NCBI GenBank assembly: GCA_030427635.1
Contig: JAUIBA010000012.1
Span: 1 to 64,000 of the forward strand
Direction of reading: 5' to 3'
DNA length: 64,000 nt
Source of the DNA: Bacteroidia bacterium
GTDB taxonomy: Bacteria; Bacteroidota; Bacteroidia; Chitinophagales; Chitinophagaceae
Position numbers and translations under genes: made by a program. The notes below the pieces were generated by a model, which saw only the letters and a list, made by a program, of their open reading frames with translations, was not told where the DNA came from and ran no database searches. Shown one piece after another: positions 21,679 to 55,409 of this stretch (within the stretch, counting starts at the first letter, position 1; each line of letters begins with the position of its first letter).

Positions 21679-21895
21679 TAATGTCGGGCATACCATGCAG
21701 TAAGGTTGTCTGCAGCGATTAGAATAACAGTTTCAGCGTGTCATCTTAATATCGTTGCAGCGTCTATCTCCTGCACCACTACAATGTACTTTTCCGGCCA
21801 TGACCCATTTCGTCCGGATGGGTACATCTGCATAGTAGCAGGTGTATGGCTGGTACACATTATTTTATGAATTTGTAGTGATGATAATCGCTTTT

Positions 21896-27800: not shown

Positions 27801-28954
27801 TAACCTATACTACACCATCAGGCACTCTGGCTCCATTTAGTGGTTATGCAGCTAATATGGGTACTGCTGCTACTCCTGTTACAGTTAGTCTTACAGGGCA
27901 GTTCAATAATGGTACGCAGTCGGCAACACTTTATAACAGGAACCGTACCTATACACTTGGCTTTAATCTGATGGGTAATCCTTATCCATCTCCTGTTAAC
28001 TGGGACGCCGCATCAGGATGGACACGTACCAATGTTGATAATGCAGTCTATTATTTCAATGCCAGCGATACCAATCAGTACACAGGTATTTACAGTGCTT
28101 ATGTAGGGGGCGTTTCCAGCGATGGAATAGCAGGTAATATCATAGCACCCATGCAGGGCTTTTTCGTACACGTATCAGACGGTGCATATCCGGTTACAGG
28201 CACGCTGGGGATGACCAATCAGGTACGTACTACAGACCTTGCACCGGTATATCATAAAGCAACAGCTACCCGGCCTTTGTTACGCTTAGAGGCTGGATAT
28301 GCATCTTCGCAGTATCGTACCGACCCTGCCGTTATCTATATGGTGGATGATGCTTCCGGTAACTTTAATCGCGACAGAGATGCCCTGAAGCTGATGAATA
28401 CGGATTCAACATTCCCGAATCTTTACAGCATATCAGGCGATGAGATGAAGTTGGCTATACAGTCGGTACGTCATATTTCAGACAGTACTACCATCATTCC
28501 ACTGGGTATTCAGTTACCTGCCGATGGTAGCATGTTTATAGGCATGCGCACCATGGATAATATACCTGATGGTACAAATGTGTATCTGTATGATGCGGGT
28601 GCTCATGTTACGCTCGATGTGCGCAGTGAGTTGCCATATTTTGTACAGCTGGGCAAAGGCGTTTATGAAAATCGTTTCTTCCTGATGCTCACCGCTAAGA
28701 ATAAGAATGAATTGCCGGTGGCAGATGGTGGCGTGAATATTTATGCTTCAGGCACTACCCTGTATCTGTATTCACTCATTGCGTCAGGAGATTTTTCTGT
28801 AACTGATCTGCTGGGGCGTGAAGTATTACAAACGCATATATCCGGTGCCGGCTATCATGAGGTAAGAGCATCAGGTATACCTCCGGGTATTTACTTTGCT
28901 ACTTTCCACTCAGCACTGGGGCGTAAATCGGTCAAAGTATTTCTTGGCAACTAA
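21896..28954 (+). CDS. Giant multi-domain T9SS-secreted protein (2352 residues)
   Basis: ATG at 21896 gives a signal peptide ending SLTPYAQ. Modules in order: a calcium-type motif WYRDLDGDGWGN (about 37); a propeller-like array of about eight 45-residue repeats, each with GTPYVAYxD and VMKYNGSSWxxVG (about 80-410); an Ig-like domain; a second WYKDADGDGWGN (about 507); a second, related propeller array (about 545-885); a second Ig-like domain; six or seven Ig/BIg2-type repeats with GTWSSxNTSxATI (about 980-1500); more Ig/PKD-like repeats (about 1500-1750); a beta-helix-like part; and a T9SS type A sorting domain (last 80 residues, GIYFATF). Likely a surface adhesin or matrix protein. No enzymatic motif is seen. 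Confidence 0.85.
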   Translation: MEQLFTNSVRPQFRYFLAGILSLLSLTPYAQSVTWYRDLDGDGWGNPSVTTTATSQPAGYVLNNLDCNDNNVNTTIWATLGAGISEYSAGYTFIRVDGSGTPYVAFNDNTSKGSVMKYSGGSWSYVGVQKFTSGQAEYISMDFDNSGNPYMAYRDNGYKGSVMRFNGSSWEYFGGSYQFTPGGAQYMSLVMDASNTPYVAYRDEYWMYSNKATVMKYNGSSWVPVGSQGFTSGSVTYTSLAIDGSGTLYLAFSDGSNSNKVTVMKYNGSSWVNVGSAGLSASSASYISLALDNAGTPYVAYSDGNASNKVTVRKFNGSSWTSVGSSGFSAGGANYVSLAIDKAKNPVVVYQDGGNSNKATVMKYNGSSWVSVLTAPVTSSSAAYSTVALSEYGVPYIAYQDAGISNKLSVMNLEPVVNYATIPSVSSTASTLCAATTVTLTATGTLNDATSWKWYSGSCGGTYIGTGASVTTSVSGTTTYYVRGENICPSSDGDCGFATVTLTAPATWYKDADGDGWGNPSLTTTSCTRPATYVSNNIDCNDAVTTSTLYYKLSSDAVAVNQVQYTSVAIDKTTNTPYVAFYESYNKGSVMKYQSGNWSYVGGSQFTDGPTQFNTLAIDGSGTPYMAYQDSWNGASVRKFNGSSWVQVGSRNFSDAGASYVSMALDPSGTPYVVYKDAYYMYGNKATVMKYNGSSWAYVGVPGFSSGNADYTSIAIDGGGSPYVAFSDGSNSGRVTVMRYLSGSWSVVGSAGFSAGSASYINIAVNSTGTPYVVYKDGGNGSRATVMRFNGTSWVNVGSAGFTPGSVNYTSLAVDDGDYVYVAFSDAANSNRASVMKYNGSSWALHGPAGFSTGTSNYNTIALDNYGIPVIAFQDNSESNKCFVMKAGPNATAPTTPTVAASAGSVSCGSALTLTATGTLNGAGAWYWYSGSCGGTFVGSGSPLTINPTASATYYAVGDGGCLTTPGNCSSGVSVSVTAAPPPVADIAGVTTTVCEGQTITLTNTTPGGSWSSSNNSRATVDAAGVVTGLSSAGNVYISYTVTNACGTTSKRVEVDVLNGPGPITGTFEICDGETSNLNSTGSGDWTSSNTSVATVASSGNVTSLSAGTTTISKANASGCYRTAVVTVNPQPGAITGTLALCGGATATLGNSVSGGTWTSTNTSVATINMSSGVVTSGATGTTTISYVTTGGCFVTAVLTVLATPADISGTFILCSGASELLSSSGTGSWSSSNAAIASVSGADASATVSGVAAGTAIITHTVDATGCYKTATVTINAAPPVIGGFTVICIDAAGTLTNATAGGTWSSTNTSRATINASTGVVSPVSAGTVTISYTMPGGCAATTVLTVASTPGNITGTLTTCPSATTQLYSSGAGTWASSNTSVATINTSGLVSGSAAGTTIITHTTSSSGCRTTRVVTVNSLPAAVSGPLGACAGGTATLTNATAGGTWVSANTSRATIGATSGVVTPVSVGTVTISYVVSATGCMRTAVFSVNATPALSSVSNGGPVCVGGALTLSSSGPTNVTSYLWSGPVAITSATSASASVASATAAAGGTYTLTVSNGSFSGCSRAYTTTATVKSKPVAAPSNDGPVCAGGTVTLTANPSGGATTYLWSGPGLASSTVENPTAAPSATSVYSLTVTDGSGHPGCSPSTVYTTLVTYNAAPTAAPSNDGPICSGATVTLSANPSGSTNRYSWSGPDLSSTTVQNPTATPTVTSVYSLVVSYNTGLPGCSPATVYTTEVTVTPGGNNWLGTVSNDWFTAANWCSGVPTSATVVTIPAGTPFQPLVASGTASVKDITIAATATLTVTGGTFRISGAVSTPVAGTFVASGGTIEMNGTAAQTLGSSVFAGNTVNNFTVSNAAGVTLTGALQVKGIVKAATGDLASNGNLTLLSDASHTALVDGSGTGNITGDATMQRYLPSAYGYKYVSSPFTTLPVSAWAPWVDLGATFPRFYTYDENLATAGWVTYTTPSGTLAPFSGYAANMGTAATPVTVSLTGQFNNGTQSATLYNRNRTYTLGFNLMGNPYPSPVNWDAASGWTRTNVDNAVYYFNASDTNQYTGIYSAYVGGVSSDGIAGNIIAPMQGFFVHVSDGAYPVTGTLGMTNQVRTTDLAPVYHKATATRPLLRLEAGYASSQYRTDPAVIYMVDDASGNFNRDRDALKLMNTDSTFPNLYSISGDEMKLAIQSVRHISDSTTIIPLGIQLPADGSMFIGMRTMDNIPDGTNVYLYDAGAHVTLDVRSELPYFVQLGKGVYENRFFLMLTAKNKNELPVADGGVNIYASGTTLYLYSLIASGDFSVTDLLGREVLQTHISGAGYHEVRASGIPPGIYFATFHSALGRKSVKVFLGN
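22140..24560 (+). repeat. Two-fold internal duplication (motif plus propeller array plus Ig)
   Basis: Each half contains a DGDGWGN motif, then about eight blades, then an Ig-like domain with WYSGSCGGT. Both copies align in order, showing duplication of a unit of about 1.4 kb within the gene; the sequences have since diverged. Bounds given cover the two blade arrays. Confidence 0.75.
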
Positions 28955-41520: not shown

Positions 41521-41922
41521 ATGTCTAATATTTTAGTTATAGAGGACGATGATATAATGCTCAAGGCTATTCGTAACATTCTGAGAAAAGATGGCCATGA
41601 AGTATTAACTGCTAAGGACGGGAAAGAGGCGTTTGAAAAATTGGATAATGAGCAGTACGATGTTGTTATTACTGACCTCATGATGCCTTATGCCAATGGG
41701 CTTGAGGTGGTGAGCCGCCTGCGTGCCAATACAGACAAGCGTCACGTTGGTATTATCGTTTGCTCCTCAGTAGGTAATGAAGAAACCATAACAGAAGCAT
41801 TCAGGTTGGGAGCAGATGATTATCTGAAAAAGCCCATTATGGCCGGTGAGCTGATGATTCGCATCCGTAAGCTGCTTGCTAATCGCAGTGCCAACCTGAA
41901 GCTGGTAACCAAGAAAAAATAA
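41521..41922 (+). CDS. Receiver-only response regulator
   Basis: A 133-residue CheY-like protein with no output domain. The acidic pocket is D10-D11, the phosphoacceptor D52 (VVITDLMMP), the switch Ser near S82-S83, and K104 in YLKKPIM. Because it is standalone, it should act through protein-protein contacts, perhaps with the HEAT-repeat or synthase products that follow after only 9 nt. No cognate kinase gene is adjacent. It leads a colinear set of six genes. Confidence 0.9.
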   Translation: MSNILVIEDDDIMLKAIRNILRKDGHEVLTAKDGKEAFEKLDNEQYDVVITDLMMPYANGLEVVSRLRANTDKRHVGIIVCSSVGNEETITEAFRLGADDYLKKPIMAGELMIRIRKLLANRSANLKLVTKKK

Positions 41923-41931
41923 TGCCGCCTA

Positions 41932-43086
41932 ATGTGGAAAGATCTGGTAGACCTGCTGTTTCAGGCATATGAACAATTTAGCCTGCTTCCTCTTTTCATT
42001 GAAATTGCGCTTGCATTTATCATTATTGCAATTGCTGCAACAATATTTGCATACGGCGCCATTCTATATAAGAGGTATCGTACCTATGTTCATGAGAAGA
42101 GGGTGGCATTCATCAGCCCAATAATAGAGGAGTTGATTACTGACCAGGTACTTCTTAATGAAAATCTGGGTAAAGATATTCCTACCGAAGAAATTGAGTT
42201 TGATAAGGAAGCACTGAGCAATAAGGTATATAAAAAGCCTTTCGTCCGTCAGATTTTAATTGAAACACTGATTCAGTATCGTAAAAACTTCCGTGGTGAG
42301 GTAGGGGAGCTGCTGCGTAAACTGTATATAGATATGGACCTGCAGAAGGACTCTTTTGCCAAGATGAAGTCTATGCGGTGGGAGCGGAAGATAAAAGCGG
42401 TGGTAGAGCTCACGCAGATGGATATTTCCATATCTGACGTTACCATCCTGCCGCTTACTAACAGTACCAATCCATCATTGCGTGCTGCTGCCCGTAATGC
42501 CTACATTCAGCTGAGTAAAAACGAGCCGTTCAAATTCTTTGATATTGCTACAGAACCACTGCTCCCGTGGGACCAGTTGGAAATGTTTAAGATTATCACC
42601 ACCACTAAGGATATTGCTATTCCTAACTTTTCCCGTTGGGTAAGCTACTCTTCTAATAAAAGTGTGGTGTCTTTTTGTCTGAAACTCATAGCCCACTACG
42701 ATCAGCAGAGTGCTATCCCTGCGGTAATGGAGCTGCTCAACAATAAAGACCACTACTTCCGTGCCGATGCTATTATCTGTCTCGGTAAGTTGTCAGCAGA
42801 AGTGGCAGAGGAAAAGATGGTACGTATCTATAACCACCAGCCGCTCAACTGTCAGGTGGAGATACTGAAGGCGATGGGCGCTATAGCTTCCGGTAAATAT
42901 CTTGAGTTTCTGAAAACGGAGTTTCTGTACTCTTCCAACTTTGATATTCGTATGAATGCGGCAAGAGCTATCATAAAGCACAATACGCAAAACTCCAGGC
43001 TGCTGGTAGAGGAGCTTATGGAAATGACCCACGAAGAAAATCAGCTGATTATTAAGCACTGTTTAAATCCATTGATAAAGTACTGA
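41932..43086 (+). CDS. Membrane-anchored HEAT-repeat protein
   Basis: A 384-residue protein with one N-terminal membrane helix (about 22-45, IEIALAFIIIAIAATIFAYG) and a cytoplasmic helical repeat region (about 140-384). HEAT-like units can be seen in NPSLRAAARNAYIQL, HYFRADAIICLGKL and FDIRMNAARAIIKH. HEAT scaffolds mediate protein contacts; here it may link the response regulator to the synthases, which is inference. The stop overlaps the next ATG by one base (TGATG), so the two are probably translationally coupled. Confidence 0.75.
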   Translation: MWKDLVDLLFQAYEQFSLLPLFIEIALAFIIIAIAATIFAYGAILYKRYRTYVHEKRVAFISPIIEELITDQVLLNENLGKDIPTEEIEFDKEALSNKVYKKPFVRQILIETLIQYRKNFRGEVGELLRKLYIDMDLQKDSFAKMKSMRWERKIKAVVELTQMDISISDVTILPLTNSTNPSLRAAARNAYIQLSKNEPFKFFDIATEPLLPWDQLEMFKIITTTKDIAIPNFSRWVSYSSNKSVVSFCLKLIAHYDQQSAIPAVMELLNNKDHYFRADAIICLGKLSAEVAEEKMVRIYNHQPLNCQVEILKAMGAIASGKYLEFLKTEFLYSSNFDIRMNAARAIIKHNTQNSRLLVEELMEMTHEENQLIIKHCLNPLIKY

Positions 43087-44558
43087 TGGGTACAACATTT
43101 ATTGAGTATGCTTCCTGGTTCTTTGAAACCACCGTATTTATTTACGGTGTGGGACTGCTGCTCATTTATGCCATCCTTGCCATCCTGTCATTTGTCAATA
43201 TCCGCCTCTTTCTGCGTAAGGAAAGCTATACCGACTACAAGGTTATCGTAGGCTCGCCACTGGCTCCCGGCATATCTGTGATAGCGCCGGCGTTCAATGA
43301 AGGTCTTACCATCATCAGTAATGTACGCTCGCTGCTCACTTTCGATTATCCTAACTATGAGGTAATTATCATCAACGATGGTAGTACAGATGATACGCTG
43401 CAGAAGGTTATTGATGAGTTTTCGCTTGTTCAGGTCGATTTTGCCTATGACGTAAAACTGAGTGCAAAGCCGGTACGGGGCGTATATAAATCTACAGACG
43501 AAGCCTATGCCAAGCTGCTGGTCGTGGATAAGGAGAACGGTAAAGCAAAGGCCGATGCCACAAACGTAGGTATCAATGTATCTGCATTTCCGTACTTCCT
43601 TTGTACCGATGTGGATTGTATCCTGCATACCCAAACCCTGCAGATGCTCATTAAGCCCATCATGGAGGAGGAGAAGAGGCGGGTTATGGCCACCGGGGCT
43701 ACATTACGCATGGCCAACTCCTGTGAGGTAGATGAAGGTGTGCTTATCACTATTAAAGCTCCCCGTCCGCTTTTGGCAAGGTTTCAGGAGCTGGAGTACA
43801 TCCGCTCATTCGTTTTGGGTAAGATGGGCTGGAGCTATATCAATGCTGTTCCTAACGTATCGGGTGGTCTCGGTCTGTTCGATAAAGAAATAGCCGTTAA
43901 GTCTGGTGGGTATGACCCTGCTTCTTTCGGTGAGGATATGGAGCTGCGTATGCGTATGTCGCGTTACGTGTATGACAATAAGATAGATGCCTCTGTACGG
44001 TATATCCCCAATACACTTTGCTGGACAGAGGGACCTACGTCAGTAAAAATATTCATGCGTCAGCGCACCCGCTGGGCGCGTGGGCTGCTACAGTTGATGC
44101 TGGCACATAAGAAGATGTTGTTTAATCCCGCATATGGCAGGGTAGGGCTTGTCGTATTCCCCTACAACTTCTTCTTTGAGCTGTTAGCGCCGGTCATTGA
44201 GTTTCTGGGTATTATATACTATATATTCCTTATTTACTTTGGATTGGTCAATTGGCCATATGCCATCATCCTGCTCATATTTGTATATACATACTCGGTC
44301 ATGATATCTACGCTGTCGGTATTATGGGACCAGCTCACATTCCAGTATTACCGTACATGGAAAGACGTAGCAAGGATTGCGGCAATGGTGTTCATTGAAA
44401 TGCTTATATACCACCCGCTTATCGTGGTATTTTCAATAAGAGGTTACTATTTCCAATTGACTAACAGAAAGCACTCATGGGGCAACATGCAGCGCGCAGG
44501 CTTTAAGAAGAAAGCAGACGATAAAGTGCCTAAAAACACTAATCCGGCTGCTACTTAA
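43086..44558 (+). CDS. Processive glycosyltransferase, GT2 family (copy 1)
   Basis: A 490-residue inner-membrane polysaccharide synthase of the PgaC/NodC/BcsA type. An N-terminal helix (about 18-38) precedes the GT-A domain: VIAPAFNEG, IINDGSTDDT (D98), TDVDCIL (D175, D177), FGEDMEL (D284, catalytic base), and the processivity motif Q326-R-T-R-W330. C-terminal membrane helices run from about 360 to 455 (FPYNFFFELLAP, IYYIFLIYFGL). Linear beta-linked polymer extrusion is the family role; the sugar is unknown. Linked by overlap to the HEAT gene and followed by a paralogue. Confidence 0.88.
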   Translation: MGTTFIEYASWFFETTVFIYGVGLLLIYAILAILSFVNIRLFLRKESYTDYKVIVGSPLAPGISVIAPAFNEGLTIISNVRSLLTFDYPNYEVIIINDGSTDDTLQKVIDEFSLVQVDFAYDVKLSAKPVRGVYKSTDEAYAKLLVVDKENGKAKADATNVGINVSAFPYFLCTDVDCILHTQTLQMLIKPIMEEEKRRVMATGATLRMANSCEVDEGVLITIKAPRPLLARFQELEYIRSFVLGKMGWSYINAVPNVSGGLGLFDKEIAVKSGGYDPASFGEDMELRMRMSRYVYDNKIDASVRYIPNTLCWTEGPTSVKIFMRQRTRWARGLLQLMLAHKKMLFNPAYGRVGLVVFPYNFFFELLAPVIEFLGIIYYIFLIYFGLVNWPYAIILLIFVYTYSVMISTLSVLWDQLTFQYYRTWKDVARIAAMVFIEMLIYHPLIVVFSIRGYYFQLTNRKHSWGNMQRAGFKKKADDKVPKNTNPAAT

Positions 44559-44593
44559 TGTAAATACTAAAAACAACACTGTGCGAATTTGAT

Positions 44594-46159
44594 ATGAGGT
44601 TCATTGTTGACTTTTTTACTGGTGGTACATTCTGGGAAACGGTAGGCGTATTCTATCAGTCGGCTGTATTTATTTACGGTACGTCGCTGCTGCTTGCCTA
44701 CGCTCTGCTTGCTATCATGTCGCTGATATCTATTCAGCGCTACATGAAGAAGAATGCCTCGGTCGACTTTCAGGTAATTGTTGAGTCGCCACTCGCGCCT
44801 GGTATCTCAGTTGTGGCCCCGGCCTTCAATGAAGGCGTTACCATCATTTCCAATGTGCGCTCACTGCTCACGTTCAACTATCCCCGGTTTGAAGTCATTA
44901 TTGTCAATGATGGTAGTACCGATGATACGCTGGAGAAACTGATAGATGAGTTTGAACTCGTGCATGTAGAGTACGCATTCAGGGAAAAGCTCAACTGCCA
45001 GCCTATAAAGCGTATATTCAAATCTACCAACAGGGCCTATGAAAAGCTGGTAGTGGTAGATAAGGTAAACGGAAAGAGTAAGGCCGATGCCTCTAACGCA
45101 GGTATTAATATCTCTGTTTACGATTACTTCCTCTGTACCGATGTGGACTGTATTCTGGACAAGGATACCCTCATAAAGCTCATAAAGCCCTTTATGGATG
45201 AGGAAACCACTAAGGTGAAGGAAGTAGGTAAGCCTTGTGAGGAATGTGGTCACGTACATATAGAAGAAGATTACCGCAGGGTTATAGCCTCTGGTGCCAC
45301 ACTGCGCATGGTAAACTCGTGCGATGTGGATGAAGGTCTTATGGTGCGTGTACGCCCTCCTAAACGTCTCATTCCCCGTTTTCAGGAGATGGAGTACATA
45401 CGGGCCTACATGCTGGGTAAAATGGGGTGGGATCTCATTAATGCCGTGCCAAACGTATCCGGTGGTCTGGGTATGTTCGATAAGGAAATTGCCGTTAAAG
45501 CCGGTGGGTATGACTCCAAGTCCTTTGGTGAGGATATGGACATGATTACGCGCATGTGTGGCTTCATGAAAGACAATAAGCGTAAGTATTCCGTACGTTA
45601 TGTACCGCTCACCCTCTGCTGGACGGAAGGTCCTACTACACTCAAGGTGTTTGGTCGTCAGCGTTCCCGCTGGGGGCGTGGTCTGGCTCAGATCATGAGT
45701 ATTCACCGCAAGATTATAGGTAATCCCCGTTATGGCAGAATGGGTTTGATCGTATTCCCATACAACTTCCTGTATGAGCTGCTGGCGCCTATTGTAGAGT
45801 TTACCGGTATCCTTTTTTACATATACCTTATTGTTACCGGGCAAATCAACTGGCCTTTCGCTATAATCCTTATCGTGTTTGTATATACCTATTCGGTGAT
45901 GATTACCACTCTGGCACTATTATGGGATCAGCTCACATTTAAGTATTATAAAACATGGGGCGAAACTATTGGTTTGTGTCTTATGGCTTTTCTGGAGCCA
46001 TTCATATACCACCCGCTTATCATGTTCTTTGCTATTAAAGGATACTTCAACTTTATTACCGGGCGTAAACACGTATGGGGCAACATGCAGCGTCAGGGAT
46101 TTGGTATGCAGGCCGCAAAAAAGAAAACCGATGCTGCTACAGTGGCCGGCTCAAAATAA
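44594..46159 (+). CDS. Processive glycosyltransferase, GT2 family (copy 2)
   Basis: A 521-residue paralogue of the preceding protein, similar along its whole length and sharing all catalytic motifs: VNDGSTDDT, TDVDCIL (D183, D185), FGEDMD (D314) and Q356-R-S-R-W360. It differs by an inserted segment after about residue 204 containing C215, C218, H220 and H222 (PCEECGHVHIEE), a possible metal site absent from copy 1. Two complete synthases in tandem suggest a heteromeric enzyme or a polymer with two linkages; both ideas are inference. Confidence 0.88.
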   Translation: MRFIVDFFTGGTFWETVGVFYQSAVFIYGTSLLLAYALLAIMSLISIQRYMKKNASVDFQVIVESPLAPGISVVAPAFNEGVTIISNVRSLLTFNYPRFEVIIVNDGSTDDTLEKLIDEFELVHVEYAFREKLNCQPIKRIFKSTNRAYEKLVVVDKVNGKSKADASNAGINISVYDYFLCTDVDCILDKDTLIKLIKPFMDEETTKVKEVGKPCEECGHVHIEEDYRRVIASGATLRMVNSCDVDEGLMVRVRPPKRLIPRFQEMEYIRAYMLGKMGWDLINAVPNVSGGLGMFDKEIAVKAGGYDSKSFGEDMDMITRMCGFMKDNKRKYSVRYVPLTLCWTEGPTTLKVFGRQRSRWGRGLAQIMSIHRKIIGNPRYGRMGLIVFPYNFLYELLAPIVEFTGILFYIYLIVTGQINWPFAIILIVFVYTYSVMITTLALLWDQLTFKYYKTWGETIGLCLMAFLEPFIYHPLIMFFAIKGYFNFITGRKHVWGNMQRQGFGMQAAKKKTDAATVAGSK

Positions 46160-46189
46160 TTTTGATATTCAATTATAAAGATTGACAAA

Positions 46190-49135
46190 ATGAGGTTTAC
46201 CCCCGTATTGATACTGATTTTTCTGGCTTCATTTTTTGCCGCTACTCCGGTTCAGGGACAGTGGCTTAAAATGATTGAGTCATCAGACAATCTGTATAAT
46301 GAGGCCAAGAAGGAGATAGAGCTTAAGCACTATCAGAAGGCGATATATATGTGCAACAAGGCTATAGACATATCTCCTAAAAACCTTGATATACATCTGC
46401 TGCTGGGACATGCTTATTCGCTGGCTGGGAAAATTGATAGTGCCCGTATAGAGCTGAATTATGTTATAAACAGGAATCCACGCTACCGGGATGCATACAT
46501 ATATCTGGTAAACATGGAAGACCTTGCCTGTAACTACCTGCAGGCACTGGAATATGCCGATATGGGTTTGAAATACTTTCCCAATGACCGCGATATCCTG
46601 TTGAAGAAACTCAACATTTACGTGAAGATGGGCGACTGGATGGAGAGTAACCGGCTGGCCGACTATCTTTTTGACCGATTCTCTGCCGACCCTTACATCC
46701 GTAGCGTGTATCTGGATTATAAGCTTGCAGTAGCCCGCCAGTATTCACATCGTGGTTATATAGAAATAGCGAAACGGGCCTATGAAGCAGTGCTGGAGCA
46801 GGACCCGCTGAACAAAGAAGCGCTTTCAGCAATCTTCGCGCTTGATGTTCGTTCTGGTAACTATGAGAGCTCCCTTGCCTACACTAACCGTGCCCTTACA
46901 TCCACTCCTAATTCATATGAATATCTCATGAAAAAGGTGAGTATTCTGGAAGCAATGGCCCGTTATGTAGAGGCAATAATGGTAGTAGATAAGCTCATGA
47001 AGCTCTATCCTACAAATAGCGATGTACAGCGGCTGAATACCTATATACACATGGAGGCCGGCCGGTTTTACATGAAAACAGACCCTTACCTGTTGTTTGC
47101 AGGTGTCTTGGAGCGTGACCCGGGTAACAGAGACGCACTCACTTATATCATCAATATCTGTTTCAGCCGGGGCAATCATGATCTGGCATTACAGTGGGTA
47201 AACTTTGGTCTCAAAACATTCCCTGGCGATTATGACCTGCTTAAGCGTAAGCTCGGTATTTTGGATGATATGAAGCGTTATGGTGCGGCATCTGCTATTG
47301 CAGAAACACTGTTTAAAGACAACCCTACCGATGTTAATAAAATGAACTTTCTGGAGCTGAGAACTTTGTCGGCTAAACAGTACATGAATGAGATGGAGTA
47401 TGACAGTGCCATTGTTGCACTCCGTTCTGTGCTGTTTTATGACCGCTCCAATGTAGCCGCAACTAATTATCTCATTAACATTTATCTGGCACAGAAGCGT
47501 TACGATGATGCACTGCGCGCTATTGATGATGCCCTTGTTTACTATCCTGCCGATGAACACCTGATGTTTAAGAAAGCAGTAGTACTGGATGGTTACCAAC
47601 GCTACTCAGATGCCGCCGCTATATCTAAACAGCTATTGGAAGCGCATCCTGAAAACAGGCAGTATCTGGCCAGTCTTATTGAGTATTCGCTGGCAGCAGG
47701 GCGGCAGGCTATGCAGTACGATGATTACTATAATACCCTCAAGGTTCTGCGGGATGTACTGGACCGACAGCCCGATAATGTAGATGCGTTGAATTATATC
47801 ATCAATATAGAAAGCGCTATCAGAAACTATGACTCAGCATTGTATTATGTAGATCAGGGGCTGCGTTATTATCCCGATTCGAAGGACTTCCTTTTCCGCA
47901 AGTCGCTGGTTTATGCAGATGCCAAGCAGTACAAAACAGCCTATGAGATTTCAGGAGATTTGTTTAAGTCCTACCCATATAATATTAAGTACCGCAGTGC
48001 ATTCATGGAGCAGCATCTGGGTGCCGGACGGGAGTATCTTGAAAATCTGAATAAAGACAGTGCACTGGTGGAGTTCTACCAGGCGCTGGAGGTAGCACCT
48101 AAGGACACCATACCATTATATTATACTATCAACCTCCTGTATGACCTGAAGCAGTACGATACGGCACTGGCCCTGTTGGACCGTGGTCGTCGCTTCTATC
48201 CGCAGAATCACTTCTTCCTTCATCGCAAGGCGCAGGTACTGGAAGCAATGGAGGAGTTTGAGCTCGCATGGCGCACTGCCGATACACTGGCAAAGATGAG
48301 CCTCTATCCTAAGCATATAGACTATGCTGCACTCTTATATGCCCGTCGGCTCCGTAATGAGATTGGTCTGTTTTATCTCCATTCTAAGATTATTCAGAAT
48401 ACAGCATTACCACCATCTATCAATAGTATAGCTACGTTACAGTATGGTCGTTTCTCATCAAAGACTACCCTCTATTTACGTATGAACTATGCCGGTCGTC
48501 TTAATGGTACCGGTTATCAGTTCGAAGCCGAGGCGTACCGAAAGCATAATAAAGTCTGGTACTCATGGGGGGCGTTTGCATGGTCGCCTACACCATTGGT
48601 TTTTCCTGAGCTGCGTTTAGGTTACTCTATCAATAAAAGCTTTAAAAAAGCATGGGCCGGTGAGCTGGGTGCCCGCTACCTGAAGCTTATGAACAATAGC
48701 CGTTCTATCTCACCGCTGGTGGGTATATCTAAGGAAATAAAAGACTTCTGGCTCAATCTGAAAGTCTACTACATGGACCTTAATTATAACGACACTGCCA
48801 GCGATAGTACTATTAAAGGAGAGTATCTTTCTGCTATATTGACAGCACGCTACTACCCACGCGATATCCGTACAGAATGGTTTAGTGCATTTGCCGGTTA
48901 TGGTAATGTGCCTGACGATTTCAGTACCAACTATTTCCTGAGTGGCTTTTCTCAGTATAAGACAGTATCGTGCGGGGTAGGTTACAGGAGGCAGTTTCAC
49001 TATCGTACTACTTTCGGAATCAATGCATCATGGTATAACATGAAAACAGAGTTGAGGGACCCCACACTGCTGACCAATATTGATGTCTTCCGGAATCAGT
49101 ATGATATTTATCTTACCTTGCTTCGCAAATTCTGA
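46190..49135 (+). CDS. TPR protein with C-terminal outer-membrane beta-barrel (YaiO-like)
   Basis: A 981-residue exported protein. The signal peptide ends PVQGQ; about 690 residues of TPR superhelix follow (repeated patterns such as AIYMCNKAIDISPKNLDIHLLLGHAYSLAG), with further repeats ending NYDSALYYVDQGLRYYPDS. The last 240 residues (from about RFSSKTTLYLRMNYAGR) are amphipathic beta strands ending in Phe, typical of an outer-membrane barrel, like the YaiO domain. Architecture echoes BcsC and PgaA, in which TPRs guide polymer to a barrel pore. Export of the polymer made by the two GT2 enzymes is the probable role. It is 30 nt after copy 2. Confidence 0.85.
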   Translation: MRFTPVLILIFLASFFAATPVQGQWLKMIESSDNLYNEAKKEIELKHYQKAIYMCNKAIDISPKNLDIHLLLGHAYSLAGKIDSARIELNYVINRNPRYRDAYIYLVNMEDLACNYLQALEYADMGLKYFPNDRDILLKKLNIYVKMGDWMESNRLADYLFDRFSADPYIRSVYLDYKLAVARQYSHRGYIEIAKRAYEAVLEQDPLNKEALSAIFALDVRSGNYESSLAYTNRALTSTPNSYEYLMKKVSILEAMARYVEAIMVVDKLMKLYPTNSDVQRLNTYIHMEAGRFYMKTDPYLLFAGVLERDPGNRDALTYIINICFSRGNHDLALQWVNFGLKTFPGDYDLLKRKLGILDDMKRYGAASAIAETLFKDNPTDVNKMNFLELRTLSAKQYMNEMEYDSAIVALRSVLFYDRSNVAATNYLINIYLAQKRYDDALRAIDDALVYYPADEHLMFKKAVVLDGYQRYSDAAAISKQLLEAHPENRQYLASLIEYSLAAGRQAMQYDDYYNTLKVLRDVLDRQPDNVDALNYIINIESAIRNYDSALYYVDQGLRYYPDSKDFLFRKSLVYADAKQYKTAYEISGDLFKSYPYNIKYRSAFMEQHLGAGREYLENLNKDSALVEFYQALEVAPKDTIPLYYTINLLYDLKQYDTALALLDRGRRFYPQNHFFLHRKAQVLEAMEEFELAWRTADTLAKMSLYPKHIDYAALLYARRLRNEIGLFYLHSKIIQNTALPPSINSIATLQYGRFSSKTTLYLRMNYAGRLNGTGYQFEAEAYRKHNKVWYSWGAFAWSPTPLVFPELRLGYSINKSFKKAWAGELGARYLKLMNNSRSISPLVGISKEIKDFWLNLKVYYMDLNYNDTASDSTIKGEYLSAILTARYYPRDIRTEWFSAFAGYGNVPDDFSTNYFLSGFSQYKTVSCGVGYRRQFHYRTTFGINASWYNMKTELRDPTLLTNIDVFRNQYDIYLTLLRKF

Positions 49136-49154
49136 CCTTACGAAGACGTGAATT

Positions 49155-51398
49155 ATGAAGTTGTTATATAGATTGGCATTTCTGCTCATTGCTGTCAGTG
49201 CCTGTAGTGGCAATGCTCAGGAACTGATAGTTGTTGATGCCGGCACATCTCAGTATTCAATAGTAGTGCCTGCAAAGCCTTCACGGCTGGAAGAGAAATC
49301 AGCAAAAGTATTACAGGACTATATCCACCGTGCTACCGGCAAAACATTGAGTATTGTACCTGAAAGTGCAAAACAGACACCTGCTGCATTTTATATAGGG
49401 CATACCCGTAAGGAAGGTACTATCATTCCGGGCCGCCTTCCAGCCGAGGCATACAGGCTTCAGGTGTCGGGAAAAGATATCCTTATTTGTGGCGGTAGTG
49501 GCAGAGGGCTTATTTATGGGGTTTATGCTTTTATAGAAAAGTATATTGGAGCGCATAAAGTGGCCGATGTGCCTGCTATCGTTCCCTCGCTTAAAAAGTT
49601 ATCAGTCCCTGACAACCTGAAGGATGAAAGCCGGCCCTTGTTTACATACAGGGAGGTTTACTACCCCGCATCTGCCGATGCAGAATATCTGGAATGGCAC
49701 AGGTTACAGCGCTTTGAAGACCTCTGGGGGTTATGGGGGCATTCATATAACAAGCTGGTACCTGCAGGTACATACTTTAAAACTCATCCAGAATATTATG
49801 CACTGGTAAAAGGAGTAAGGCAACCCACACAGCTTTGTCTCAGTAACCAGGAGGTATTTAATATCGCTGTAGCAGAGCTGAAGAAAAGAATGGCAGACAA
49901 ACCCGATGCCATGTACTGGTCTGTAAGTCCTAATGATGATATAGGCTGGTGCGAGTGCGACCAATGTAAAGCGATAGATGATGCCCAGGGCTCACCTTCA
50001 GGCTCACTTATCACCTTTGTAAATCGTGTCGCAAACCAGTTCCCCGATAAGTATATAACTACGCTGGCATATGGTTATACACATCGTGCCCCCCGCACTA
50101 TTACTCCGGCAGGCAATGTGTATATCTTCCTGAGCAATATAGATGCATATCGCAACAAGCCATTGCTGGCAGAGTCATCGGCAGCGCCCTTCCGCAATGA
50201 TGTGAAACAATGGCACCAGCTTACCGGTAACCTCTTCCTGTGGGATTATGTTACTCAGTTTACCGCTTATCTGGCTCCATTCCCTAATCTGCTCACGCTG
50301 CAGCCTAATATGCAGTTTTATAAAGAAAATGGCATAAAAGGACTTTTTGTGCAGGGCAGTGGAGATACATATGGTGAGTGGGCAGAGTTGAGAAGTTATC
50401 TGCTGGCTCAGTTGCTGAATGATGAAAAGGCCGATGTAAAGAAAAATACTGAGCTGTTCCTGCAGGAGTTTTATGGCCCGGCAGCAAAGTTTCTGTTACA
50501 GTACATAGGGCAAACGCATGGCGATATGGATGAGTCAAAACGCAGGCTGGATATCTATGGCAATCCTGTAAACGAGTGGAATTCATGGCTTACTCCGGAG
50601 AAACTGGATGCATACAGCGCTTTGCTGGATGCAGCCGAGGGGGCTGTGGAAACAAAACCTGTTTTCGCTGAGCGTGTAGCTCGGGTAAGGCTGTCTCTGG
50701 AATATGTGGTATTGCAGCAGGCCCGGTTTTATGGCATTGAAAAGTTTGGTGTTTTTGAAAAGGATAAGAATAAACAGTGGGTAGTGAAAAGTGGGCTCAG
50801 AGAAAGGGTAGCCCGGTTTGTAACTGCCTGCCGTAAAGCTGGGGTAAAAGAGCTGGCAGAAGGTGGCCCTTCGCCCGATGCTTACCTTGCAGAGTGGGAA
50901 GAGATATTTGCGGGTGGGGTAGTGCCATCATCAGCCGTAGGTGCCAAAGTCTCACTGCAGCATGCTTTTGCCCCAGAGTATCCGGCAAAGGCTGAGCGTA
51001 CGCTCACAGATGGGGTTCCGGGATATAAAGACTATAGTTACAACTGGTTGTGCTTTTATGGTACAGACATGGTAGCAACAATAGATATGGGCGCAAAGAA
51101 AAGCATCTCTGGTTTAAAGATGCATTTTCTGGACGACCCACGACATTGGATATTTCTCCCCTCAGCCATTAAAGTAGAGGTGTCTGACGATGGTGTTAAT
51201 TTCAGGCCATATGCGGCAATACCTGTGCCTGCTATGGAAGAGCACTACAACTGTACTGTTACACCATTTGCAGCAGAGGCAGCAGAAAAAGCACGTTATG
51301 TAAGGGTATCAGCCACCAGCCCGGGACAGTTGCCGGTATGGCGCTTCCGGGAAAACCGTAAGCCTATGATAGCCTGCGATGAAATCTATGTGCAGTAG
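49155..51398 (+). CDS. DUF4838/glycoside hydrolase-like lipoprotein with discoidin-like C-terminus
   Basis: A 747-residue exported protein, starting 19 nt after the barrel gene. The signal ends AVSAC, fitting a lipobox. Residues of about 35-135 look like the N-terminal domain of GH20/GH67 enzymes (LEEKSAKVLQDYIHRATGKTL, YRLQVSGKDILICGGSGRGLIYGVYAFIEKY). The middle (about 170-480) is the TIM-barrel-like DUF4838 region, with SVSPNDDIGWCECDQC and YGEWAELRSYLL. The C-terminal 150 residues resemble an F5/8 discoidin sugar-binding domain (IKVEVSDDGVNFRPY). It probably cleaves or trims a glycan, plausibly the product of this locus, in the way PgaB acts for PNAG. Confidence 0.8.
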   Translation: MKLLYRLAFLLIAVSACSGNAQELIVVDAGTSQYSIVVPAKPSRLEEKSAKVLQDYIHRATGKTLSIVPESAKQTPAAFYIGHTRKEGTIIPGRLPAEAYRLQVSGKDILICGGSGRGLIYGVYAFIEKYIGAHKVADVPAIVPSLKKLSVPDNLKDESRPLFTYREVYYPASADAEYLEWHRLQRFEDLWGLWGHSYNKLVPAGTYFKTHPEYYALVKGVRQPTQLCLSNQEVFNIAVAELKKRMADKPDAMYWSVSPNDDIGWCECDQCKAIDDAQGSPSGSLITFVNRVANQFPDKYITTLAYGYTHRAPRTITPAGNVYIFLSNIDAYRNKPLLAESSAAPFRNDVKQWHQLTGNLFLWDYVTQFTAYLAPFPNLLTLQPNMQFYKENGIKGLFVQGSGDTYGEWAELRSYLLAQLLNDEKADVKKNTELFLQEFYGPAAKFLLQYIGQTHGDMDESKRRLDIYGNPVNEWNSWLTPEKLDAYSALLDAAEGAVETKPVFAERVARVRLSLEYVVLQQARFYGIEKFGVFEKDKNKQWVVKSGLRERVARFVTACRKAGVKELAEGGPSPDAYLAEWEEIFAGGVVPSSAVGAKVSLQHAFAPEYPAKAERTLTDGVPGYKDYSYNWLCFYGTDMVATIDMGAKKSISGLKMHFLDDPRHWIFLPSAIKVEVSDDGVNFRPYAAIPVPAMEEHYNCTVTPFAAEAAEKARYVRVSATSPGQLPVWRFRENRKPMIACDEIYVQ

Positions 51399-51406
51399 GT
51401 GTATAG

Positions 51407-52222
51407 CTACTTTTCTACAATGTAAAGAACAGAACGTTTGTGAATACCACATCGTTCCGTTTCATCGTTGGTGAAAAAGTCCGCTCTTATTTCTTTTACC
51501 TTAAATCCCGCTGTCTTCAGGTTTGAGATGAACCCGTTTCTGGAATACATACGCACATGGTCATTCTGTCCGTAATATTTCCAGCGGTCAGCTTCACTTT
51601 GTATAGATGCATCTTCCAGGGTGTCCTCTATGGTGAGGCATATGGGCACCATAGCAATGCCCCATCCTCCGGGTTTCAATACTCTGTATAGCTCACGCAT
51701 AGCTTTGAGGTCATCAGGCACATGTTCCAGTACATGAGAGCAGATAAATACGTCAAATCTTCCCTCTTCGTAGATATGCATGTCGGTAATGTCTACTTTA
51801 TCATCCACATTGGGGATGTAAAGGTCTGCCGATCGGTAGTTGAATAATGGTGATGCCCGCAGATACTGTTCCAGTGCCGGTGTCGGAGCTATATCCAGGA
51901 GATTCAGTCTGTTGCTCACAGATGTCCCAATGCGTTTCTCTATGTATAATGCATAGAGCCGGTCACGGTCAGACGAATAACATTTGGGGCATGAATACCT
52001 GAATATATTAAAGGTCTCAAATGAAAAAAGCGGATGTGCCAGCTGGTGCTCGTCCAGCATATCCAGGTATTCCTGATCTGCTGGTTTGAAGTACTTTACT
52101 TCGGTTTTACAAACAGGGCAGTAGTGCGCGCCACCCATATATGCCAGTACTGTCGGATCAGTATTTATTTCCCTGAAAAACGCATGCACTGCTTTCTTAA
52201 GCCTCAGGACACTTTTATTCAT
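51407..52222 (-). CDS. SAM-dependent methyltransferase with zinc ribbon
   Basis: A 271-residue class I methyltransferase. A zinc-ribbon-like region holds paired cysteines (HYCPVCKTEV near 35 and YSCPKCYSSDRDR near 78), followed by the Rossmann domain: LNLLDIAPTPALEQYL (motif I), FDVFICSHVLEHVPDD (motif IV) and LKPGGWGIAMVPI. Proteins of this type often modify sugars or lipids in envelope clusters; the substrate is unknown. It converges on the hydrolase gene with 8 nt between stops. Confidence 0.8.
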   Translation of the reverse strand: MNKSVLRLKKAVHAFFREINTDPTVLAYMGGAHYCPVCKTEVKYFKPADQEYLDMLDEHQLAHPLFSFETFNIFRYSCPKCYSSDRDRLYALYIEKRIGTSVSNRLNLLDIAPTPALEQYLRASPLFNYRSADLYIPNVDDKVDITDMHIYEEGRFDVFICSHVLEHVPDDLKAMRELYRVLKPGGWGIAMVPICLTIEDTLEDASIQSEADRWKYYGQNDHVRMYSRNGFISNLKTAGFKVKEIRADFFTNDETERCGIHKRSVLYIVEK

Positions 52223-53310: not shown

Positions 53311-55341
53311 TTAGGTATCTGCTTCCGGTGGTGCAGGTAGTATTATTGTAAAGGTACTGCCCTTGCCCACAGTGCTGCTTACCGTTATTGTGCCAGCATT
53401 GGCATCCACATACTCTTTGCATAGCAGCAGGCCCAGCCCTACGCCTCTTTCACCATCCGTACCATATGTTCTGCCATGCTCGGTAGTGAAAAGCTTGTTT
53501 ATCTGCTTTTCTGTCATCCCTATACCTGTGTCTGTTATCGATATGGTGGTATGGCCCCCGGCCCGTTTCCCATATATGGTTACACGGCCTCCTGGTTGTG
53601 TGAATTTTATAGCATTTGCTATAAGGTTCCTTATCACTACATTTATTTGCTCTTCGTCACCTGCAGCCAGCGTACCCGGGATTACTTTATCAGCTATCTC
53701 TATATTTTTTATATCTGCTGCTGCCAGCAGTAGCTCTTTGTTCTTTCTGGCTATATCCTTTATGTCTATTACCGATGAGCTCGTAGCCTCACCGGTTGTA
53801 AGTGAGGTAGAGGCCCACCGCAGCAGGTTATCCAGCATTTCATTTACAGCATTCAGCTGTCGCGTTATCTGCTCTTTTACTTCTGTTAACTCTTCCGGCT
53901 TAAAGTCTTCTATCATAGGCATCATACCGCTCAGGGATGCCAGTGGCGATCTCAGGTCATGTGCTATTATAGCCAGTAGTCGGGTCTTAAAGTTATTTAA
54001 TTCATTTACCTGTTCATTCAGTGTTGTCAGTCGGGTTACGTTCGTTCTTGAGTTTCTGTAGTTACGCCATATGAGATATAGTATCACCACTGCCATCAGA
54101 GAAAATAGCATTTCCGTTGCCAGGTATATGTTTTTGATACCATTATCTTTTCTCAGGTCCGATATCTCACTTTGTTGTGATAACCGGTTGAATACCTCAC
54201 TCAGGCTGGTATTGGTAATGTGTTCTGTCGCTGCTTCAAACGAGTCTTTTTTTCGGGTGTATGCAAGGTGGTAACTATATGCCTGTGGTATATTCTTTAC
54301 TGTGTCATAGTATAGCCACATCGTATAGAGCCATTTTAGTTCACACGCTGCATTATGCAGCGAGTCTATGGCCGTTCTGGTAGTCTTCAGTAATGCCTCA
54401 GCTGCGTCAGGTTGCCCGGTTGCAAGATGGTATTGTGCCAGCTTTAGTGCTGTTAGTTGCGCATCTTTTCTGTCATATCGTACCAGGTTATGCAGCCTGT
54501 AGCTTTCTGTAAGTGCTGCATATGCAGCATTCATGTCTTTCCCCTGCTTCAGATAGCAGCCTCCCAGGTTGCCCAGTATTACAGCCCGTGCTGTAGCATT
54601 CAGTATTTCATGGTCATTATATTTACCCTCATTCCTTTTTATGAATGCAAGTGCCAGCTGGTAGTATTGTATGGCGCTGTCATATGCTGCCAGCCGTTCA
54701 AAGCTTAGTCCTATATTGTCCAGATGACTTTGTTTCAGAAAGAATGCATTGGTAAAGTCCAGAGCTCCGCAGTGTGCACTTTCATAAAAAGCATTTCTGA
54801 AATAGCTTATTGCTTCATTGTAACGTTGTTGCCTGAAGCTTACCAGCCCCAGATTGTTGTTTAGCTTGGCAAAGGAGCATGTGTCTTCATATTTTTCTGC
54901 CAGTTTTTTAGCAGCATAAAAACATTCAAATGCTTCATTGTTACTTCCTTTACTCAGCAGTGCCGAGCCTTTCTGGAACATTGTATTGAAGAGGTATTCA
55001 TAATCTTCTGTCCTGTCCTCCAGCTGTGCCAGTGTACTGTCTATGAATAGCAGGTTGCTGTCTGCATTCTTTTTACCATAGGTATAGTAGAAACTCAGAA
55101 ATTCGTAACGCTCTCGTTTTGTTGCCTTATTGGCGTGCGGTATAAGGTGCCATACAGAGTCATTGAGCATTTTGGCGCTCATACTTTGTCCGGCATCAAT
55201 CATATCTTTTCCTTTATGGCTGGCTTCAGCCATTCGGGTATCAGCCTTTCCATCCATAGGTTCATTGCATGAGCCTGTTACCCATAGTAACACAATACAC
55301 AGGTATAGTCTGTTTCGGAAAAAAGAATGCAATGATGTCAT
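53311..55341 (-). CDS. TPR-containing sensor histidine kinase, lipoprotein-type signal
   Basis: A 676-residue membrane kinase. With the ATG at 55341 the signal ends LLWVTGSC. The periplasmic part (about 30-395) is a TPR array (NEAFECFYAAKKLAEKY, YNEAISYFRNAFYES, YDSAIQYYQLALAFIKR), then one membrane helix (about 405-425, YLATEMLFSLMAVVILYLIW), a HisKA domain with phosphoacceptor H461 (IAHDLRSPLASL), and an HATPase domain (NLIANAIKF, DTGIGM, GVGLGLLLCKEY). The TPR sensor could bind periplasmic peptides or proteins. No response regulator adjoins it; the standalone receiver at 41521 is one candidate partner. Confidence 0.88.
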   Translation of the reverse strand: MTSLHSFFRNRLYLCIVLLWVTGSCNEPMDGKADTRMAEASHKGKDMIDAGQSMSAKMLNDSVWHLIPHANKATKRERYEFLSFYYTYGKKNADSNLLFIDSTLAQLEDRTEDYEYLFNTMFQKGSALLSKGSNNEAFECFYAAKKLAEKYEDTCSFAKLNNNLGLVSFRQQRYNEAISYFRNAFYESAHCGALDFTNAFFLKQSHLDNIGLSFERLAAYDSAIQYYQLALAFIKRNEGKYNDHEILNATARAVILGNLGGCYLKQGKDMNAAYAALTESYRLHNLVRYDRKDAQLTALKLAQYHLATGQPDAAEALLKTTRTAIDSLHNAACELKWLYTMWLYYDTVKNIPQAYSYHLAYTRKKDSFEAATEHITNTSLSEVFNRLSQQSEISDLRKDNGIKNIYLATEMLFSLMAVVILYLIWRNYRNSRTNVTRLTTLNEQVNELNNFKTRLLAIIAHDLRSPLASLSGMMPMIEDFKPEELTEVKEQITRQLNAVNEMLDNLLRWASTSLTTGEATSSSVIDIKDIARKNKELLLAAADIKNIEIADKVIPGTLAAGDEEQINVVIRNLIANAIKFTQPGGRVTIYGKRAGGHTTISITDTGIGMTEKQINKLFTTEHGRTYGTDGERGVGLGLLLCKEYVDANAGTITVSSTVGKGSTFTIILPAPPEADT

Positions 55342-55409
55342 TTGTTGATTGGCCTCAGACTGCAAAATAATACTCTGTTTAAATATTACTACAGTTACTT
55401 AACGCTATC

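Follow-up and report, generated by a model that had tools for sequence, protein, structure and literature searches.

Which kind of system is formed by a stand-alone response regulator, a HEAT-repeat protein, two family 2 glycosyltransferases (GT2s), a tetratricopeptide repeat (TPR) protein with a YaiO outer-membrane barrel and a DUF4838 protein, whose genes lie side by side on contig JAUIBA010000012.1 of a Bacteroidia bacterium (Chitinophagaceae; assembly GCA_030427635.1)? The analysed stretch of this contig, 64,000 nucleotides (nt) in length, is referred to below as the window. The locus is probably a synthase-dependent operon for polysaccharide synthesis and export under phosphorelay control, in which the receiver would act on the synthase through a HEAT adaptor. 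Polysaccharide synthesis and export as the function of the operon is well supported. We further infer the contact between receiver and HEAT protein, the contacts among the other proteins, the direction of control, the role of the TPR-YaiO protein in export and the joint work of the two synthases.

Gene order within and beyond Bacteroidota

The six genes are located on the forward strand and are separated by 9, -1, 35, 30 and 19 nt; the coordinates of the open reading frames (ORFs) thus confirm the six colinear genes with gaps of -1 to 35 nt described in an earlier inspection of the letters alone (the sequence-only reading). They encode a receiver-only response regulator of 133 amino acids (aa; 41521..41922; PF00072, 104 bits), a HEAT-repeat protein of 384 aa (41932..43086; PF13646 (HEAT_2), 37.9 bits), the processive-type glycosyltransferase GT2a of 490 aa (43086..44558; PF13641/PF00535), its paralogue GT2b of 521 aa (44594..46159; Glycos_transf_2/Glyco_tranf_2_3), a TPR - outer-membrane beta-barrel protein of 981 aa, the putative exporter (46190..49135; TPR_19, 131.8 bits, plus YaiO), and a DUF4838 glycoside-hydrolase-like (lipo)protein of 747 aa (49155..51398; PF16126, 310.9 bits, with PF02838 and PF00754). 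All Pfam assignments of these proteins lie above the gathering score. The 4.25-Mb genome contains one match each to the HEAT protein, YaiO and DUF4838 of the window, 16 to Glyco_tranf_2_3 and 46 to the receiver query. Since the first three are single-copy, yet all parts are found within 10 kb and 64 of 81 related loci show them in the same order, the clustering is more than chance would explain.

These 81 loci comprise the window and the best 80 of 103 confirmed places in the named-genome collection, which were picked by their closeness to GT2a and therefore say little about distant relatives. The nearest GT2a relatives derive from metagenome-assembled genomes of Bacteroidota, some of them named Taibaiella or Flavipsychrobacter, and the nine closest are 82-91% identical. 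The order response regulator-HEAT-GT2-GT2-YaiO-DUF4838 opens 64 loci, exactly in 61, with a further receiver behind it in two and with DUF4838 divided between two ORFs in one. The sequence-only reading had asked for HEAT-GT2-GT2-TPR-YaiO synteny across Bacteroidota and had named its absence as a reason to abandon the proposed locus; the synteny is conserved and reaches beyond the phylum. The remaining loci differ in several ways. An additional receiver stands in front of the six-gene order in L114, whose record is labelled Beijerinckiaceae, yet whose operon groups inside Chitinophagales, and this contig is probably mis-binned. The receiver alone is missing at a contig edge in L082, and the lack of HEAT in six loci results from the position of GT2a at a contig edge. 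The order stops after the second GT2 in four loci, three of which (L077, L085, L090) reach the contig end there. One GT2 is found in L137 and L144, one GT2 without DUF4838 in L149 and L151, and two GT2s without DUF4838 in L143.

Searching with the HEAT protein gave matches in 37 of 247 genomes of the phylum, at 42 places; 40 of the 41 places other than the window were fetched (the weak match G062 was left out), and the 42 HEAT instances correspond to 40 distinct ones, as two overlapping loci have two genes in common. A GT2 gene follows within 300 nt in all 42 instances (40/40 distinct genes), and a same-strand receiver lies near HEAT-GT2 in 34 of the 40 distinct loci. YaiO occurs within 7 kb in 36/42 instances (34/40 distinct), DUF4838 is a minority partner (9/42), and 23 of the 42 have an LtaS/MdoB-related sulfatase-fold domain encoded nearby. 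In the family to which the window belongs, the HEAT protein has matches in 43 of 147 genomes, in many cases at low identity. Selection by YaiO led to 68 places in 64/247 genomes (67 in fetched DNA). At 54 of these, HEAT and GT2 are encoded no more than 9 kb away, and at 45 a receiver as well; among the other 14, four (L161, L165, L167, L168) contain a HEAT-sized gene just 5' of GT2, for which the HEAT profile gives 24-29 bits.

Outside Bacteroidota, plasmids were searched. GT2a gave 163 tblastn records, and among the 60 listed, 14 scored above 200 bits (the next one 144), representing 12 organisms (Mesorhizobium ciceri three times), for each of which one locus was read. HEAT is encoded directly 5' of GT2 in 12/12 of these organisms, as judged by annotation in ten and by profile in Emticicia (annotated as “hypothetical protein”; the HEAT profile gives 171 bits, Pfam 25.0 vs a cut-off of 27.7) and Paenibacillus (an unannotated ORF with HEAT_2 at 85 bits). 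The hosts are alphaproteobacteria, Legionella adelaidensis, Deinococcus, two Bacillota (Planococcus, Paenibacillus), three haloarchaea, Emticicia and Bacteroides finegoldii. Receiver, HEAT and GT2 genes stand in a row in 3/3 haloarchaea, with a small ORF between the first two in Halosolutus. No YaiO is annotated within 5-6 kb in the three haloarchaea and none was seen within the same distance in Planococcus and Paenibacillus, all five of which are presumed to be single-membrane cases. Mesorhizobium combines an ATP-binding (kinase-like) protein, two receivers, YaiO, HEAT, GT2 and an Hpt protein, and TPR proteins without a YaiO match occur in Deinococcus, Devosia and Erythrobacter. No HEAT neighbour was annotated or detected for five control GT2 relatives below 150 bits, chosen from the 46 listed. 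By these comparisons, the “unusual parts” of the sequence-only reading appear as the local form of a module shared by haloarchaea and several bacterial phyla.

Two of the plasmid loci have further neighbours. The B. finegoldii locus (HEAT-GT2-TPR/YaiO-DUF4838) is followed by a DUF1573 gene, and upstream of it, on the other strand and past two genes, a chondroitinase-family polysaccharide lyase is encoded. HEAT-GT2 of Planococcus maritimus adjoins CotH kinase-family and polyphosphate-polymerase-like genes, with a Qat anti-phage gene about 5 kb away.

Two synthases, a putative exporter and the polymer

Both GT2s of the window contain the NDGS, DVD, GED and QRxRW motifs, and NDGS, DxD, ED and QRxRW are kept in 71/71 GT2a and 71/71 GT2b sequences, so that the D, DxD, ED and QxxRW residues typical of the membrane-embedded processive GT2s of synthase-dependent secretion are complete in each, as the sequence-only reading had it. 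The two proteins share 62% identity in the window, with a range of 58-68% for the two copies of a locus. Conservation is stronger in GT2b (mean identity 74% vs 69% for GT2a; higher in 2427/2485 locus pairs). Two residue differences are fixed between them, and a PCxxCGxxH insert after DxD is present in 71/71 GT2b, 0/71 GT2a and 0/62 single-copy GT2s (62 sequences, 61 distinct); CxxCGxxH was likewise found in 0/13 GT2s from plasmid loci scoring above 200 profile bits. In the window this insert (C215, C218, G219, H222) is encoded at 45236..45259 (+), and our guess from the pattern is that it may bind a metal in a knuckle-like manner. It provides a direct starting point for asking why the operon retains two synthases.

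Trees were calculated without columns filled in fewer than 60% of rows, which also removed the GT2b insert. A quick tree (116 rows) united the 26 sampled GT2a sequences in one clade (SH-aLRT 98), and a more careful one (50 rows) supported GT2a with 98/89 and GT2b with 87/66. The single GT2s were placed outside both copies in the former and weakly with GT2b (89/57) in the latter. These comparisons indicate that the tandem GT2s are a lineage-specific local duplication on a HEAT-GT2 core, often accompanied by a receiver. The tandem arrangement, which the sequence-only reading had listed among the unusual features, is thus present but does not define the system.

The AlphaFold2 model of GT2b (pLDDT 83; about 67-69 in the region of the insert) has hyaluronan synthases as its nearest solved structures (E 1.8e-15, TM about 0.6, 12-16% identity). 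The next protein in the operon passes the YaiO cut-offs (PF19413, 95.4-97.8 bits vs 23.9; TIGR04390, 49.7 bits vs 32) with a barrel domain at residues 747-910 (48428..48919, +), and ends in a C-terminal Phe. Together with its TPR part this would give the TPR-containing outer-membrane barrel of synthase-dependent secretion, and the TPR-YaiO partner proposed at the outset stands.

The DUF4838 protein also matches Glyco_hydro_20b (PF02838) and contains a C-terminal carbohydrate-binding module of the F5/8 type (F5_F8_type_C, PF00754). Its AlphaFold2 model (pLDDT 93) resembles BT0459, GH84, GH115 and GH67 at 10-15% identity, which places it near beta-hexosaminidases and alpha-glucuronidases by fold; in profile comparisons it matches solved alpha-glucuronidases and, via the C-terminal module, a beta-hexosaminidase. 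The sequence-only reading had called it a PgaB-like lipoprotein. It has no deacetylase match, but in view of its fold it may be a counterpart of the hydrolase portion of PgaB. As for the lipoprotein label, 52 aligned homologues show C17 conserved to at least 90%, but a strict lipobox occurs in only 26/80, many start codons being uncertain.

These folds and profile matches, together with the label GH163 (endo-beta-N-acetylglucosaminidase) given to a DUF4838 protein of Polaribacter, which is not the window protein (PMC9870897), the likeness of GT2b to hyaluronan synthase and the sugar genes of two plasmid loci, favour a beta-linked N-acetylhexosamine polymer, perhaps with uronic acid, as our guess; the polymer may differ between lineages. 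The sugar genes are those for a sugar-phosphate nucleotidyltransferase and glmS after GT2 in Halosolutus, and for a nucleotide-sugar dehydrogenase and two epimerase-family proteins around YaiO-HEAT-GT2 in L. adelaidensis.

A separate observation concerns eight loci (L040, L041, L046, L052, L053, L056, L065, L067) in which GT2 is fused to the LtaS/MdoB-related sulfatase-fold domain (by profile in all eight, and by Pfam in L040, L041, L053 and L056). The fused domain is likely a modifying enzyme joined to the synthase in one protein, and the combination recalls BcsG, the phosphoethanolamine transferase of the cellulose (Bcs) system. The L034 query found no sulfatase-fold partner in the window's genome, an empty answer that proves little.

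The receiver, its kinases and the proposed switch

The phospho-acceptor pocket is kept across the 112 operon-linked receivers (D9 in 109, D52 in 110, S/T82 and K104 in 111 each). The acidic pocket, phospho-acceptor Asp, Thr/Ser and Lys of two-component receivers are therefore all present, and the receiver is intact, as had been claimed. In the HEAT-selected set it lies up to 1.8 kb upstream in 29 of the 40 distinct loci, with YaiO intervening in some, and 3' of DUF4838 in five. The HEAT protein of the window has one predicted N-terminal transmembrane helix (residues 21-39), the rest being probably cytoplasmic, and a single N-terminal helix was predicted by a simple hydropathy rule in 122/134 homologues. 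The HEAT proteins of L034-L037 are about twice the usual length (693-931 aa), and Pfam found only HEAT domains in them.

A histidine kinase is encoded on the same strand within 0.9 kb 5' of the receiver in 22 loci. Two types occur: hybrid kinases in 15 loci, 14 of these within 92 nt, and a TPR-kinase in seven loci of the window's near relatives, at a spacing of 200-273 nt (split over two ORFs in L086). Only fragments occupy the kinase position in L080. On account of the linkage in near relatives, we propose as the candidate partner of the operon receiver the TPR histidine kinase at 257490-259523 of contig C37 (L185:3961-6027), the best match to the operon-linked TPR-kinase in the window's genome (49% identity, 677 bits); none of the matches to the receiver query lies closer to it than 50 kb. 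Another TPR-histidine kinase, encoded in the window 2 kb downstream of the operon (53311-55365, -), was rejected as the orthologue since it reaches only 31% and 247 bits, and is a paralogue instead. In family f13 the place of the receiver is taken by a protein with two receivers and GGDEF (2/2 tested, L167 and L172), and receiver proteins of similar length stand there in L173 and L174.

According to the mechanism that we propose, GT2a and GT2b would act as processive synthases of the inner membrane, which use cytoplasmic nucleotide sugars and push the growing chain through their own transmembrane channels. The TPR-YaiO protein would conduct the chain through the periplasm and release it via its barrel, and the DUF4838 protein would trim or bind it. 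A histidine kinase would phosphorylate the stand-alone receiver, which might then dock on the membrane-anchored HEAT solenoid sitting on the synthase, and the solenoid would switch the synthase. Well-studied bacterial polysaccharide synthases are mostly under the control of cyclic di-GMP (c-di-GMP). No PilZ domain or GGDEF partner was found by Pfam in the six window proteins, and the phosphorelay might do here the job of c-di-GMP in cellulose and poly-N-acetylglucosamine (PNAG) systems. If this is true, receiver and HEAT adaptor constitute a different switch for matrix production, in bacteria as well as archaea, and the HEAT family, DUF4838 and YaiO gain a common and testable setting.

Known systems and competing explanations

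The operon resembles PgaABCD in its processive GT2, TPR-barrel exporter and glycoside-hydrolase-type processing protein (the TPR domain of PgaA is described as binding polymer and PgaB; PMC9384988), and differs from it in the HEAT protein, the receiver and the YaiO-family barrel. A YaiO-family barrel near a GT2 is also found in the YaiO/YaiP/YaiS region of Escherichia coli, where yaiX (interrupted by IS2 in K-12) lies between the barrel and GT2 genes; neither HEAT nor receiver is annotated there, and the family GT2 profile gives 53 bits for YaiP, below the 112 bits of PgaC. Hyaluronan synthase is a single protein, for which we know of no HEAT partner. We conclude that the operon functions in the manner of a synthase-dependent polysaccharide system, and that it falls outside the named systems tested (PNAG and cellulose).

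That it might nevertheless be a divergent pga or bcs operon, with HEAT and receiver as accessories, seems to us quite improbable. PgaC_IcaA is the best NCBIfam match of both GT2s, the TPR part is PgaA-like, and a GH163-type enzyme, a label taken from another DUF4838 protein (PMC9870897), would fit a GlcNAc polymer; yet the GT2s score 104.8 and 110.2 bits with the PNAG synthase model TIGR03937 (cut-off 422), the exporter 49.9 bits with the PgaA model TIGR03939 (cut-off 367; best stretch in the TPR part), and the GT2s 25 and 35 bits with CelA/BcsA (cut-off 699). Moreover, no match to PgaB/polysaccharide deacetylase, PgaD, BcsB, BcsC, BcsZ or PilZ was obtained among the six proteins, and the HEAT linkage extends to lineages without a nearby YaiO. 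The least probable explanation, to which we give very little credence, is that the GT2s move single sugars onto a lipid or protein carrier without polymerisation: partial matches to non-processive models such as HpnB, and ceramide glucosyltransferase among the weak PDB sequence matches, are outweighed by QRxRW in both enzymes, transmembrane helices flanking the GT-A domain, the full-length match to hyaluronan synthase and the TPR-barrel as a genetic partner.

More serious is the objection that the receiver acts elsewhere, as a generic CheY-like messenger, and that HEAT is a structural synthase subunit with no phosphorelay gating. It draws on the HEAT loci in which the receiver is absent (six) or 3' of DUF4838 (five of 40) and on the five plasmid loci without one; we nonetheless hold it to be unlikely, since the receiver precedes HEAT-GT2 in three haloarchaea, a kinase lies 5' of receiver-HEAT-GT2 in 22 loci and a GGDEF-receiver protein takes the same place in family f13. 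Somewhat less unlikely, though still doubtful, is the idea that the two synthases are redundant copies, or that each makes a polymer of its own, instead of forming one complex. Operons with a single GT2 and otherwise the same parts do exist (L032, L137, L144, and also L055 and L061, where the receiver is missing too), but both copies are adjacent in 71 loci, which, with the GT2b-only CxxCGxxH and the two fixed differences, argues for a division of labour.

Several observations weigh against the phosphorelay-controlled synthase operon that we prefer. Gene linkage denotes functional association, and neither contact nor the direction of control. The matches to PgaC lie far below the cut-off and do not indicate the GT2 substrate. 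Among the single-copy GT2s, QRxRW was found in 56 of 62 and the ED motif in 53, so that six lack QxxRW and nine the ED motif as written. L091 continues after response regulator-HEAT-GT2-GT2 for about 8 kb with no YaiO or DUF4838, being either a real exception or an assembly fault. By the distance rule, no receiver is present in 6/40 HEAT loci (L040, L051, L055, L058, L061, L067; L058 stops at a contig edge, and the receiver of L051 sits 2.3 kb upstream, beyond the 1.8-kb limit), and none was seen at the plasmid loci of Deinococcus, Planococcus, Paenibacillus, L. adelaidensis and B. finegoldii; the receiver is therefore not obligatory. No kinase adjoins the receiver in the window. The HEAT proteins annotated in Planococcus, Halosolutus and Deinococcus go undetected by the HEAT profile, and six others reach 19-50 bits, so that the common descent of the distant HEAT proteins with that of the window, which we consider likely, rests on position, not on sequence. 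Neither E. coli YaiO nor the YaiO annotated in Mesorhizobium is detected by the YaiO profile, whose negatives are therefore weak.

A broader proposal can be offered tentatively, as somewhat short of an even chance: receiver-HEAT-GT2 would be an ancient inter-domain module acting as a post-translational phosphorelay switch, to which exporters and modifiers (YaiO or other TPR proteins; LtaS-like proteins or DUF4838) are added according to envelope type, and in Chitinophagales GT2a and GT2b would form an obligate pair, with the metal knuckle of GT2b marking or holding a heteromer.

The open-access full-text literature contains no description of such a system that we could find (subscription journals, preprints and archaeal terms lay outside this search), and does not contradict the earlier view that it belongs to no named one. 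In Polaribacter dokdonensis, the GT2 gene MED152_03905 and the DUF4838 gene MED152_03915 were up 8.8-fold and 18.5-fold, respectively, with the alga Micromonas, and MED152_03105, “response regulator (GT2)”, was up 6-fold with a green alga (PMC9870897). That study classes the GT2 and the DUF4838 gene with enzymes sensing algal products, and its main text mentions neither HEAT nor exopolysaccharide. MED152_03905 and MED152_03915 may belong to this operon, since their locus tags are two apart, as those of GT2 and DUF4838 in GT2-YaiO-DUF4838 would be; if so, the algal response may report matrix production instead.

As regards the surroundings of the operon, the Bacteroidota -7 promoter consensus TAnnTTTG was not found in the 400 nt upstream. 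The genes on this side are divergent GroES/GroEL-like ORFs, named from their translations (to 41124 and 40758, -), and the opposite flank is formed by a convergent methyltransferase gene (51407-52222, -). Elsewhere in the window, an ORF of 2370 aa occupies positions 21842-28954 (+).

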